Part shown: positions 10,576 to 58,006 of the stretch, piece after piece | Layout of the letters: each line of letters begins with the position of its first letter | Position numbering within the stretch: position 1 is the stretch's first letter | Source of the DNA: an uncultured Alphaproteobacteria bacterium | Lineage (GTDB): Bacteria; Pseudomonadota; Alphaproteobacteria; Micropepsales; Micropepsaceae | Reading direction: 5' to 3' | DNA length: 58,006 nucleotides | NCBI GenBank assembly: GCA_903837555.1 | Contig: CAILUV010000018.1 | Location: 1 to 58,006 of the forward strand | Made by a program: the position numbers and the translations under genes | Notes under the pieces: generated by a model | Database searches by the model: none | The model's input: only the letters and a program-made list of their open reading frames with translations | Told to the model about the DNA's origin: nothing

Positions 10576-10581
10576 GAAAGG

Positions 10582-10869
10582 GTCACCCGGGTTCGCCCGG
10601 GCGTCTATGGCGATAAACGACTGTGTAATAAGCAGCCCGGACCCGGGGGCAGTACCCGGCGCCTCCACCATAAGCCCATTTTCGGATGGGTTTTTGTGGG
10701 GGCGAAACAGGATCGACGGATGTGTAAAGGCAGTTCTTTTGCTCGGTATGGTTCCGCCGTCATCGGACTATTGTTTAGGTGCCAACGATAATGAAATGGC
10801 CCTCGCTGCCTAACTACGGTTAGCCAAGCGCGGTTTTGGTAGTTGCACCGGGCAACAGAAGCAACTGCC
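10582..10869 (+). ncRNA. ssrA: Circularly permuted (two-piece) tmRNA, alphaproteobacterial type
   Basis: The acceptor piece comes first and ends in CGCCTCCACCA (CCA at 10668-10670). Its seven-base acceptor strand pairs with GGGGGCG (10698-10704), the start of the coding piece GGGGGCGAAACAGGATCGACG. The third pair is G-U, the alanine identity element. The T arm is CCGGG / CCCGG around GGCAGTA. A short hairpin (about 10672-10694) joins the two pieces and is expected to be cut out. The tag frame is GCC (10781) to TAA (10811-10813), encoding ANDNEMALAA. A closing 9-bp stem spans 10838-10869. The ends are estimated. The RNA rescues stalled ribosomes with SmpB and marks the peptide for ClpXP; the sspB adaptor gene is 3.4 kb away. 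Confidence 0.95.
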
Positions 10870-10873
10870 ACTC

Positions 10874-13060
10874 TTACTGCGTAATTTTGATCGCGATGTC
10901 GCCGCGTTTGGAGACAATCGTCACTTCCGTGTTCGCGCCGCTCCGGCGCAGGCGCAGGTTCACCGAGGCGTCGCCCAGCGTCAGGTCATTGATGGTGATC
11001 TCTTCCAGGAATTTGGGAAGCTGTGGGTTTTGAAAGCGGATCTCGCGCTGCGCGAAACACATCTCCAGCCCCAGGCACGCCTGCAGCAGCGCGAACGGCA
11101 CCACGCTGGCCCAGGCCTGCGGGGAGCAGGCCACCGGATAGGATGTCGGCGCCACGCCGCGCCGGCGGGGAAAACCGCAGAACAGTTCGGGGAAGCGCAT
11201 GAATTCCATGTGCGTGGCGGCGGCAAACAGGCCTTCGAAGATGGTGCTGGCGGCGCGCTTCAAGCCATAGCGCGACAGGCCGAGCGCGATCAGGGCATTG
11301 TCGTGCGGCCAGATCGAGCCGTTGTGATAGGCCATGGGATTGTAGCGCGGCGCACCGGTGGCCAGCGTGCGGACGCCCCAGCCTGAGAACATCTGGGGGG
11401 TCATCAGGGTGTCGGCCAAAACTTGCGCCCGTTGCGGCGAAGCGATGCCGCAAAACAGTACCTGCCCCGCATTGGAGGAGCGCACTTTGCAAGCGCGCTT
11501 GGCGCCGTCCAGCGCGATGGCATAGGCGCCCAGCTCTTCAATCCAGAATTTTTCCTCGAACTGCACCCGCAGCTTTTCCGCCGCTTCGGAAAGCTGCGAG
11601 GCCTTGTCGTTTTCGCCCAGCCGCGCCGCCAGCAGCGCCGCGCCATGCTTGGCGGCAAAGACATAGGCCTGCACTTCGCTGAGCGCGATCGGGCCGGTGG
11701 CAAGCGTGCCGTCCTCGTGCATCACGGAATCGGAAGAATCCTTCCAGCCCTGGTTGGTCAGACCGTTGTCGCTGACCCGGTAGTATTCGACGAAACCGTC
11801 GCCGTCCTGGTCGCCATAACGGTCGATCCAGGTCAGCGCCGCCTCGATGTTGGGCCACAGTGCGCGGATGGTCGGTAGATCGCCCGTGCGCTCGAAATAG
11901 CGCGCCGCCAGCAGCACGAACAGCGGCGTGGAATCGATGCTGCCGTAATAATGGCCGAACGGCACCTCGCCCAGCACCGCCATTTCGCAGGCCCGCGTTT
12001 CGTGCAAAATCTTGCCGGGCTCGGCATCGGCGCGTTCGTCCAGTTCGGTCGCCTGATGGGCGGCCAGATATTGCAGCACGCCCTTGGCCAGCGCCGGATC
12101 CAGCCACAGCATCTGCAGCGCGGTGATCAACCCGTCGCGCCCGAACGGGGTCGAGAACCAGGGCGTGCCGGCATAGGGATAGGGTCCCTGCGGCGTGTCG
12201 GTGATCAGCATCGAAATGTCGGCGCCGGCCCGGTGCAGCATGCGGTTCGCCAGTTCGTTGCTGGACGTGACGCTGCCGCCCAGGCTGCAGGCCCGCGCCG
12301 CCCCGCGCCGCGCCGCGCGATAGGGCACCGAATAGCCGCCGGTGATGTCGCTGCGCGCCTGGGTGCTGTTGGTACAGCGCACATTGACAATGATGGCGGT
12401 GCGTTCGCCGGGCTGAAGCTGGAGGTGATAGACCGCCTGCTGACTGGAAAGCGTTTCCGGCGGCGGGTCGAAGCAGATCTCGCTGCATCGCTCAACCGCA
12501 TCCAGCCCGATATAGCGAAAAATCGTCTTGGTGCCCTCGATCACCGATGCGGTGATCTCGCCGCGCGCCGGGCGCTGGTTGCCGCGAATTTCGAACAGGT
12601 CGGCAAAGTCGGCGGCGAAGGTCAGGGTAAGCCAGCAGGATTGTGGCCTGGCGTCGAAATTGTGGATGGCGATACGTTCGTAACAGGTGCCGTCCCACAG
12701 GAATTTCGAGCGGCGTATGTGCAGGGTCTCCCGCCCCAGCGCCAGCGCATTGTCCTGATAGATGTCGGGGTTGGACAGGTCGACCGTCAGCACGACATTG
12801 TCGTTTTCGACAGCCGACGACAGCAGCAAGGGCCGCTGGCCGTCGATCAGAAGTTGCATGCCCGAAAGATAGCGGGTGTCGTTGTGAAACACGCCGCCGG
12901 GCGTCATGCCGGGATCGATCACATCGCCCAGCGCATCGAACAGGCCGAAGGTATCACCCTGTTTGAGGGTGCGAGGCCAGCGTTGCTGGATGGATTCCGT
13001 CGCCTGAATATAGAACGTCGAAATATCGTCCGGCGAGTAGGGGAGGATCTTTGCCTCCAT
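10874..13060 (-). CDS. Amylo-alpha-1,6-glucosidase / glycogen debranching-type protein
   Basis: 728 aa. An N-terminal GDE-type beta-sandwich domain (about 20-230, with GDTFGLFDALGDV and FHNDTRYLSG) precedes an alpha/alpha toroid catalytic region resembling GH15/GH133. Characteristic pieces are AGTPWFSTPFGRDGLITALQML, YYGSIDSTPLFVLLAARYFERTGD, TNQGWKDSSDSVMHEDG and AYHNGSIWPHDNALIALG. The likely activity is hydrolysis of alpha-1,6 (or similar) glucosyl branches in a cytosolic glucan. It is 18 bp downstream of a glycosyltransferase gene on the same strand, a pairing seen in alphaproteobacterial alpha-glucan loci. Its 3' end lies 5 bp from the tmRNA 3' end, in convergent orientation. Confidence 0.85.
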   Translation of the reverse strand: MEAKILPYSPDDISTFYIQATESIQQRWPRTLKQGDTFGLFDALGDVIDPGMTPGGVFHNDTRYLSGMQLLIDGQRPLLLSSAVENDNVVLTVDLSNPDIYQDNALALGRETLHIRRSKFLWDGTCYERIAIHNFDARPQSCWLTLTFAADFADLFEIRGNQRPARGEITASVIEGTKTIFRYIGLDAVERCSEICFDPPPETLSSQQAVYHLQLQPGERTAIIVNVRCTNSTQARSDITGGYSVPYRAARRGAARACSLGGSVTSSNELANRMLHRAGADISMLITDTPQGPYPYAGTPWFSTPFGRDGLITALQMLWLDPALAKGVLQYLAAHQATELDERADAEPGKILHETRACEMAVLGEVPFGHYYGSIDSTPLFVLLAARYFERTGDLPTIRALWPNIEAALTWIDRYGDQDGDGFVEYYRVSDNGLTNQGWKDSSDSVMHEDGTLATGPIALSEVQAYVFAAKHGAALLAARLGENDKASQLSEAAEKLRVQFEEKFWIEELGAYAIALDGAKRACKVRSSNAGQVLFCGIASPQRAQVLADTLMTPQMFSGWGVRTLATGAPRYNPMAYHNGSIWPHDNALIALGLSRYGLKRAASTIFEGLFAAATHMEFMRFPELFCGFPRRRGVAPTSYPVACSPQAWASVVPFALLQACLGLEMCFAQREIRFQNPQLPKFLEEITINDLTLGDASVNLRLRRSGANTEVTIVSKRGDIAIKITQ

Positions 13061-55579: not shown

Positions 55580-56218
55580 TCAGTCTATCTTGCCGGATCG
55601 CTGTTGCGAACCCCAGCGCTTCAGCAGGAAGGTCGCAGCGATGCCCGCCGCCAGCGTCAGGCAGGCGATCAGCCATTGACCGCTGCCCAGCAGCGCCGCG
55701 CCCGATGCGCCGATATCAACCTGCGCAATCGTCATGGGCAACATGCCGGCAAACGACCCGATCAGGTAATTGCGCCAGGAAAGATTTGTCATGGCCAGAA
55801 GCGTGTTGGTGACGCTGTGCGGCACCGGCATGAGGCGCAGGATCGCCACGCTGCGCCAACCGCCCTGCTCCGCCCGCTCCACCAGGCGCCCGATGCCGGG
55901 CGAGGCATCGAGCACGCCGGTGGCGCCGAACCAGCGCACCACGGCAAAACCCGCCGCGCCGCCCAGCATGCAACCGATCATCGCCCACACGGTGCCCCAC
56001 CACAGGCCAAAGATCATGCCGGCCGCCACGCCCAGCACCAGGCGCGGCACGAACAACAGGCTGGCCGCCACCTGCAGCGCCACGAAGATCACCGGCGCCA
56101 GCGGATGGGCGGCAATCGCATCGCGGATCGCGATGGGATCGACCGCCTGGCGCCAGACAAAGGCGATGGCGATAGCCATCGCCAGCGCCACCAGGCCGAG
56201 TAAGCGGAAATGCTTCAC
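55580..56218 (-). CDS. TVP38/TMEM64 (DedA-like) membrane protein
   Basis: 212 aa from GTG 56218, overlapping the metH stop (GTGA). About five to six helices; the central segment FVPRLVLGVAAGMIFGLWWGTVWAMIGCMLGGAAGFAVVRWFG (only partly quoted: FGLWWGTVWAMIGCMLGG) and MPVPHSVTNTLLAMTN are the family's SNARE-associated domain. Inner-membrane protein; relatives are implicated in membrane lipid homeostasis. Function here unknown. Confidence 0.82.
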   Translation of the reverse strand: MKHFRLLGLVALAMAIAIAFVWRQAVDPIAIRDAIAAHPLAPVIFVALQVAASLLFVPRLVLGVAAGMIFGLWWGTVWAMIGCMLGGAAGFAVVRWFGATGVLDASPGIGRLVERAEQGGWRSVAILRLMPVPHSVTNTLLAMTNLSWRNYLIGSFAGMLPMTIAQVDIGASGAALLGSGQWLIACLTLAAGIAATFLLKRWGSQQRSGKID

Positions 56219-57441
56219 GCCGCGTCCACCGTACGCGGATTGTAGTTCAGCAGCGGCGCCAGCCAGCGTTCGGCGGTCGCCATGTCCCAGCCCTTGCGTT
56301 TGGCGTAATCGGCGACCTGGTCGCGTTCGATCTTGCCGACGCCGAAGTAACGGCTTTCGGGATGGGCATAATAGAAGCCCGACACAGACGAGCCCGGCCA
56401 CATGGCATAGCTTTCGGTCAGCTTGATGCCGATCTTGGCTTGTGCATCCAGCAGCTTGAACAACGTGGCTTTCTCGCTGTGCTCGGGCTGGGCGGGATAG
56501 CCGGGGGCGGGACGGATGCCGCTATAGGCTTCCTTGATCAGCTCGTCATTGCTGAGATTCTCGGTCGCCGCATAGCCCCACAATTCCTTGCGCACCTTTT
56601 CATGCATCGCTTCGGCGAAGGCTTCGGCAAGGCGGTCGGCCAGCGCCGACAGCAGGATGGCGTTGTAATCATCCTTGGCGTCCTTGAACGCCTGAATGTG
56701 CTTTTCCTCGCCGATGCCAGCGGTCACGGCAAAGCCGCCGATATAATCCTCGGTGCCACGGGGCGCGATGAAGTCCGACAGCGCCAGGTTGGGGCGATCT
56801 TTCTCGCGCGCCATCTGCTGGCGCAGCGTGTGCAGCGTGTGGATAGGAAATTTGCGGGCCTTGTCGCCATAAACGACGATGTCATCGGCATTGTCGGGCG
56901 ACCGGTTGACGGGCCAGAAGCCCACAACCGCACGCGCCGTCAGCCATTTTTCGTCGATGATCTTTTTCAGCATCGCCTGCGCGTCGCGGTACAGGTCGCT
57001 GGCCGCCTTGCCGACCTTTTCGTCTTCCAGGATGGCGGGGAAGGGCCCTGCCAGTTCCCAGGTCTGGAAGAAGGGCTGCCAGTCGATGTATTTGGCCAGC
57101 TCCGCCAGATCGTAATTGTCATACACGCGCGTGCCCAAAAAGCTGGGCGCGCCCGGCGTCTTGGTGAAGTCGGGCTGAGCGCGGTTGGCGCGCGCCTGTT
57201 CGATGGTCAGACGCTTGCCGCTGGACTGCTTGTTGGCATGGGTCGTCGCCATCTTTTCATACTCGGCGCGGATATCGGCGGCATAGCGCGCGCCGCCTTC
57301 CTTGCTGAGCAGGCTGGAGGCCACGCCCACCGCGCGGCTGGCGTCGGTGACATAGACGGTCTGGCCGCGCGCGTAGGACGGATTGATCTTGACCGCGGTA
57401 TGCACCTTCGACGTCGTGGCGCCGCCGATCAGCAGCGGACG
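56215..57441 (-). pseudogene. metH: Methionine synthase MetH, C-terminal part only, 5' truncated
   Basis: About 408 codons recognisable. MetH homology begins abruptly at RPLLIGGATTSKVHTAVKI (nt about 57441), the end of the cobalamin-binding domain, and continues through the whole reactivation domain (SPDNADDIVVYGD, RGTEDYIGGFAVTAGIG, IRPAPGYPAQPEHSEK, SRYFGVGKIERDQVADYA). The homocysteine, folate and most of the B12 domain, some 800 residues, are missing. Sequence upstream of 57441 is unrelated and belongs to the DUF883 neighbourhood. It could be a real deletion or inversion junction or an assembly error; the intact part has no frameshift. Confidence 0.8.
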
Positions 57442-57572
57442 GACCCTAGAGCGACGATGCCTGAGCTTACCAGAACGGCACAGGCCATAAAACTGCGAGA
57501 GACGAGGGTCACGGCTTCGCCAACGCTCCATCTTGCCGCCGAGAGACTGCCGGGAAGCAGTACCAGCGTCAC
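57429..57572 (-). CDS. Short truncated membrane-protein fragment at the junction
   Basis: A GTG two bases after the DUF883 stop opens a frame of 47 codons with a hydrophobic stretch (SRSFMACAVLVSSGIVALGSV). It ends four codons after the metH junction, at a stop lying inside metH sequence. It looks like the 5' remnant of a second gene of the DUF883 operon, cut by the same breakpoint. No family assigned; no ribosome site is obvious. Confidence 0.3.
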   Translation of the reverse strand: MTLVLLPGSLSAARWSVGEAVTLVSRSFMACAVLVSSGIVALGSVRC

Positions 57573-57574
57573 GT

Positions 57575-57931
57575 TCAGCGACGGCTCGCGACCCCGAGCG
57601 CAAAGCCCAGTCCGAGCGCGACCAGCACGGTCGCTAGCGGATTACGCGCAATCTCATATTCAATCTTGGCTGTTGCGATATGCGCCGTTTCAGCGGCATC
57701 CCGCCCAACCACTGTGGCATTCTGGTAAATCTGTTCCCCGGCCGCACTGGCGCCACGAGCCGCGATGCTGGTCGACTCTCTGATCTGCGATCTGGCACTC
57801 GCTGCGCCCTCGGATGCAAGACGTGTCACCGTCTCTGACAATGCCGCTATGTCGGCGCGGAGCTGATCCAGGCTCTTGCCAATATATGCCCCGCCAAGGT
57901 TCAAGTCCCTGTCAGTCGAATTGCTTGTCAT
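57575..57931 (-). CDS. DUF883/YqjD-like membrane-anchored protein
   Basis: 118 aa from ATG 57931 with GGAG eight bases upstream. A helical, polar N-terminal part (SLDQLRADIAALSETVTRLASEG) precedes a C-terminal helix NPLATVLVALGLGFALGVASRR that anchors the protein in the inner membrane. E. coli YqjD and ElaB, of the same architecture, bind ribosomes in stationary phase; that role is not shown here. Confidence 0.82.
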   Translation of the reverse strand: MTSNSTDRDLNLGGAYIGKSLDQLRADIAALSETVTRLASEGAASARSQIRESTSIAARGASAAGEQIYQNATVVGRDAAETAHIATAKIEYEIARNPLATVLVALGLGFALGVASRR

Positions 57932-58006
57932 GTCATGATCTCCATGTTGCCGAATATCTGGCGTGTTACAAAGGCGAGGTCGCACCGGACTTTGGAACAC
58001 GATCCC

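Follow-up and report, generated by a model that had tools for sequence, protein, structure and literature searches.

The window is a stretch of 58,006 nt that makes up an entire contig (C18) of an alphaproteobacterial draft genome (101 contigs, 2,457,954 bases, completeness 98.43%, contamination 1.58%). Towards its end lies the C-terminal part of metH, the gene of the methionine synthase that transfers a methyl group from methyltetrahydrofolate to homocysteine via cobalamin (Table 1). This piece covers the activation domain fully (PF02965, profile positions 1-273 of 273, 424.4 bits) and matches the family profiles TIGR02082 (positions 813-1182 of 1182, 388.9 bits) and PRK09490 (positions 828-1233, 590.7 bits). 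Taken alone, it scores below the curated TIGR02082 cut-off of 1010.85 bits. It is carried by the last long metH-bearing open reading frame of the window (56215-57603, minus strand), which is MetH-like only from codon 57436-57438 on. This is the proline of P-L-L-I-G-G, at which the residue-by-residue resemblance to relatives opens. The two profile matches stretch past this point, TIGR02082 by 9 bases (to 57447) and PRK09490 by 18 bases (to 57456), and the residues under these ends are unlike those of the relatives. The initial annotation, which placed the start of the homology at about 57441 inside the B12 domain, was correct within a few bases. Far from this locus, ARAGORN marks a tmRNA gene (tmRNA*, tag ANDNEMALAA) at window positions 10576-10904 (plus strand); we take the asterisk to denote a permuted, two-piece tmRNA.

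Table 1. Features at the metH junction (window coordinates unless contig C33 is named)
Feature	Position	Strand	Evidence
C-terminal 407 metH codons: end of the B12 domain and whole activation domain	56215..57438	-	PF02965, TIGR02082
Junction between metH (lower coordinates) and the membrane gene (higher coordinates)	57438..57444		Alignments with relatives and the L026 protein
Presumed misjoined tail of C18, up to the contig end	57439..58006		DNA identity to a Rhizobiales MAG, single occurrence in the genome
Holin-like membrane gene, first 43 codons, cut at the junction	57444..57572	-	Match to L026:5360-5773
DUF883-like gene, 118 aa, intact	57575..57931	-	PF05957, 17.7 bits; 73% identical to L026
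metH codons 1-815, open frame truncated where C33 ends	C33:2-2446	-	TIGR02082

Beyond the break, 568 bases remain before the contig ends at position 58006, and they hold two genes. One is an intact open reading frame. It matches the DUF883 profile (PF05957) under the Pfam gathering cut-off (17.7 versus 25.4 bits), as does its homologue at locus L026 of an uncultured Rhizobiales MAG (19.5 bits). The DUF883 gene of the initial annotation is upheld as an intact frame with a PF05957 match, at a score short of family membership. We call the product DUF883-like only. The other is a small membrane gene. Its 43-codon fragment aligns with residues 1-43 of a 137-aa L026 protein (20/43 identical, E 1e-6 in a single comparison), which adjoins the DUF883-like homologue in the Rhizobiales MAG and belongs to Phage_holin_3_6 (PF07332, 35.7 bits, cut-off 28.4). 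The fragment itself has no Pfam match. This similarity ends at 57444 and that of metH at 57438; the bases 57439-57443 belong to neither gene. Hence two genes are cut within a few bases of each other, and the earlier description of a metH piece and the start of another membrane gene broken at one point holds.

Contig C33 of the same assembly carries the other part of metH at its end. TIGR02082 has exactly two matches in the genome, at this contig end and in the window, and both are in open frames. The match on C33 (2-2398, minus strand) spans profile positions 2-801 of 1182 and reaches 1263.4 bits, which is above the cut-off. The piece holds PF02574, PF00809, PF02607 and the beginning of PF02310, of which profile positions 1-68 of 121 are covered before the contig runs out, so that the break falls inside the B12 domain. 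Only the two pieces together supply the whole set of MetH domains: homocysteine, pterin, B12 cap, B12 and activation. Upstream of the C33 piece are metF (PF02219) and a gene for an ArsR-type regulator with a methyltransferase domain. The initial annotation had suggested that the rest of the gene might lie elsewhere, as an N-terminal piece ending in the B12 domain, and such a piece is what C33 carries. Joining the two contigs by overlap failed: C33 and window positions 56001-58006 have no common word of 15 or more nucleotides, and the single shared 14-mer lies at C33:5479, remote from the C33 end. Because there is no overlap, their adjacency is deduced from synteny alone.

We surveyed TIGR02082 in 25 members of the genus, including the genome itself, and used 18 relatives for the stretches around metH. 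Seventeen of these match profile positions 2-1182, and one, G018, matches positions 2-1164, being cut by a contig end. Left out were G001, G003, G011, G013 and G019, whose metH is incomplete or fragmented, and G002, which lacks a match. In 18/18 relatives, the parts that correspond to C33 and to the window form a single gene in one frame, separated by 14 codons (42 nt). Since C33 ends one nucleotide into these 42 nt, the gap between it and the window amounts to about 41 nt. We also considered a MetH family with its natural start at the break, and reject it because all the genus relatives examined continue through this point. All 18 have the ArsR/methyltransferase gene and metF ahead of metH, and a C33 gene that we take to be MlaA-like was located in 14. 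On the far side of metH, a window gene with TerB and DnaJ domains, presumably DjlA-like, is found in 13 of the 18 (close by in 8, about 4-5 kb off in 5), and the amidase gene of the window is found in 7. The VTT gene of the window occurs in a single relative, G006 (locus L033), where every gene stands in the order given by C33 followed by the window. None of these 18 stretches has the DUF883-like gene.

The survey also revealed irregular metH genes elsewhere in the genus. Cuts at contig edges occur in the drafts G001, G011, G013 and G018, so that assemblies in this genus apparently often break at metH. In G003 the gene gives three matches (2-174 on its contig C192; 296-376 and 379-1182 on C92), perhaps through a frameshift and an assembly break. 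G002 (10 contigs, about 95% completeness) has no TIGR02082 match, possibly from a real loss of MetH.

Two open and complementary pieces are most simply read as one whole MetH, and we infer that the cell makes methionine with it. A search for MetE (PF01717), the other gene to which the initial annotation had pointed, gave no match in this genome; 10 of 14 control genomes have one. The data do not support the proposed loss of the cobalamin-dependent synthase: the pieces are open and together nearly complete, the gene order of the relatives spans the break, and the search of the genome found no metE that would compensate.

The end of C33 that faces the gap is aberrant too. Codons 771-805 of its metH piece have a GC3 of 0.51 and a GC of 0.45; in the other 22 full windows of 35 codons these values are 0.74-0.97 and 0.55-0.74, respectively. 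Over these codons the C33 piece is at best 0.69 identical to any relative, less than in any other window of the gene, whereas the best identity of each relative to another sequence is no lower than 0.86. In codons 386-420 and 421-455 the C33 piece again ranks last or shares the last place, but by a small margin (0.89 versus 0.89 and 0.91 versus 0.94). The 44-aa end of the piece matches 329 of 398 genomes of the phylum. Its top matches, at 88%, come from within the class (G669) as well as from beyond it (G757, G536), so that they point to no particular source for this end. The low GC3 and lowered identity at the end of the metH piece extend over about positions 1-125 of C33, which probably represent either another short chimera or sequence that has diverged. 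With both gap-facing ends suspect, the pattern fits a local assembly failure within metH.

The two sides of the junction differ in their nearest kin. On the metH side, protein identity to the 18 genus relatives is 65-82%. On the tail side, the DUF883-like protein has 5 matches among 60 relatives, 4 of them among the 36 other genus members, at 27-34% identity versus 73% in the Rhizobiales MAG. The latter is the sole relative confirmed in the GTDB collection, by a search whose reach is limited to close relatives (1 confirmed among 363 pattern matches). The DNA of the tail is identical to that of this MAG at 375 of 503 nt (75%, window 57469-57971), in an alignment that runs from ahead of the DUF883-like gene into the second gene. 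None of 384 other genomes of the class, evenly drawn and searched with limited candidates per genome, has the DUF883-like protein at E<=1e-8. The tail (57440-58006) is single-copy, as a search of the same genome gave no second copy at E<=0.001, and nothing in the assembly clearly corresponds to the missing part of the broken holin-like gene (best E 0.28). Plasmid and viral origins were tried as well. The DUF883-like protein has no match in the plasmid collection, 62 pattern-matching stretches in viral contigs gave no confirmed one, and the exact 32-nt junction is not present in those contigs; both collections may omit records very near the window's own genome, so that little follows from these negatives for the species itself. 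From its affinities, the tail most likely derives from another organism, even if its GC of about 0.60 scarcely differs from that of the rest.

We therefore hold with good confidence, from comparison of these sequences, that the last 568 bases of the window are a misjoined, chimeric contig end that carries DNA of another bacterium. The chromosome most likely carries one ordinary full-length metH, with codons 1-815 at the end of C33 and the last 407 in the window, the roughly 41 nt between them having been left unassembled. In their place, C18 would have been joined to a fragment akin to the uncultured Rhizobiales genome, with the DUF883-like gene and the start of the holin-like gene. The join may have been made by the assembler, for instance in a graph tangle or during scaffolding, or may go back to a read or library molecule that was itself chimeric. 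The enzyme would work as an ordinary MetH. Like the proteins described by TIGR02082 and PRK09490, the pieces jointly contain the five Pfam domains in their normal order; unlike them, they are spread over two contigs with a short gap. The chimeric contig that the initial annotation offered as one option fits these data, given the N-terminal piece at the end of C33 and a tail far closer to the Rhizobiales MAG than to the genus. Three observations count against this reading: C33 and the window lack an overlap, the GC of the tail is similar to that of the rest, and the estimated contamination of the assembly is low. The GUNC paper, in the excerpts used here, states that misassembly yields chimeric contigs and that it is relatively rare in MAGs (PMC8201837), which counts a little in the same direction. 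Our case resembles the chimeric contigs of those excerpts in that two apparent sources of DNA meet at one point near a contig end of a 101-contig draft; it differs in that the draft is probably, rather than certainly, metagenome-derived and the chimera is proposed from sequence comparison.

The tail could instead be native DNA that was wrongly attached to metH, i.e., a misjoin within the organism's own genome. The close GC and the weakly similar DUF883-like genes of the genus agree with this, and a strain-specific gene could sit in the part of the genome left unassembled at 98.43% completeness. Against it stand the Rhizobiales MAG as nearest relative, the failure to find the protein in 384 other genomes of the class at E<=1e-8 and the missing rest of the holin-like gene, and we regard a native tail as unlikely.

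Considerably less likely is a real rearrangement or insertion, in which the DUF883-like and holin-like DNA broke metH and left two fragments and probably a methionine auxotroph. The junction is sharp, with both genes cut there, and without metE the loss of metH would matter. Yet none of the 18 relatives examined has anything but 14 codons between the two parts, C33 stays in the metH frame to its last base with no insert end visible, and the contig ends on the two sides of the gap are both aberrant. Among the tail open reading frames scanned, none was recognised as a transposase or integrase, and the junction, of which one side is present, has no direct repeat. Nothing that we found favours the recombination breakpoint that had been proposed as the other origin of the junction.

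A natural split of MetH, in which the window piece would be an independent gene and the N-terminal part would act as another protein, has very little in its favour at this locus. Split MetH enzymes do exist: the excerpts of PMC7311316 and PMC5764234 used here describe enzymes divided between domains (Burkholderia, Bacteroides, Phaeobacter), and an excerpt of PMC12478193 describes the split enzyme of Ruegeria. Our pieces are like these in having MetH domains over more than one reading frame. However, the known splits described in those excerpts separate domains, and the break here cuts the B12 domain (PMC7311316, PMC5764234). The nine split MetH cases of GapMind were judged genuine, according to the excerpt, because similar splits occur in related genomes (PMC7311316), whereas the present one recurs in 0/18 of the genus relatives examined. 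In addition, the sole listed in-frame start upstream of the junction is a TTG at 57603, from which translation would cross the second membrane gene in a different frame. Outside the family, 6 of 16 genomes (G027, G030, G031, G032, G035 and G038) have the homocysteine domain as a separate match beside the remaining MetH, with a break near profile position 340; judged by the profile matches, this is a natural split form. Just as improbable is a real break at which a transferred DUF883/holin-like pair splits the Rossmann fold of the B12 domain and the halves are active as separate chains.

A misjoined contig end remains our preferred reading, and its significance is mainly cautionary. C18 alone would prompt the annotation of a metH pseudogene and of a methionine auxotroph, and would assign to the organism a DUF883/holin-like pair that is probably not its own. 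The remaining contigs and the relatives speak against this single-contig reading: the junction is very probably an artefact, and the biology behind it would be ordinary.
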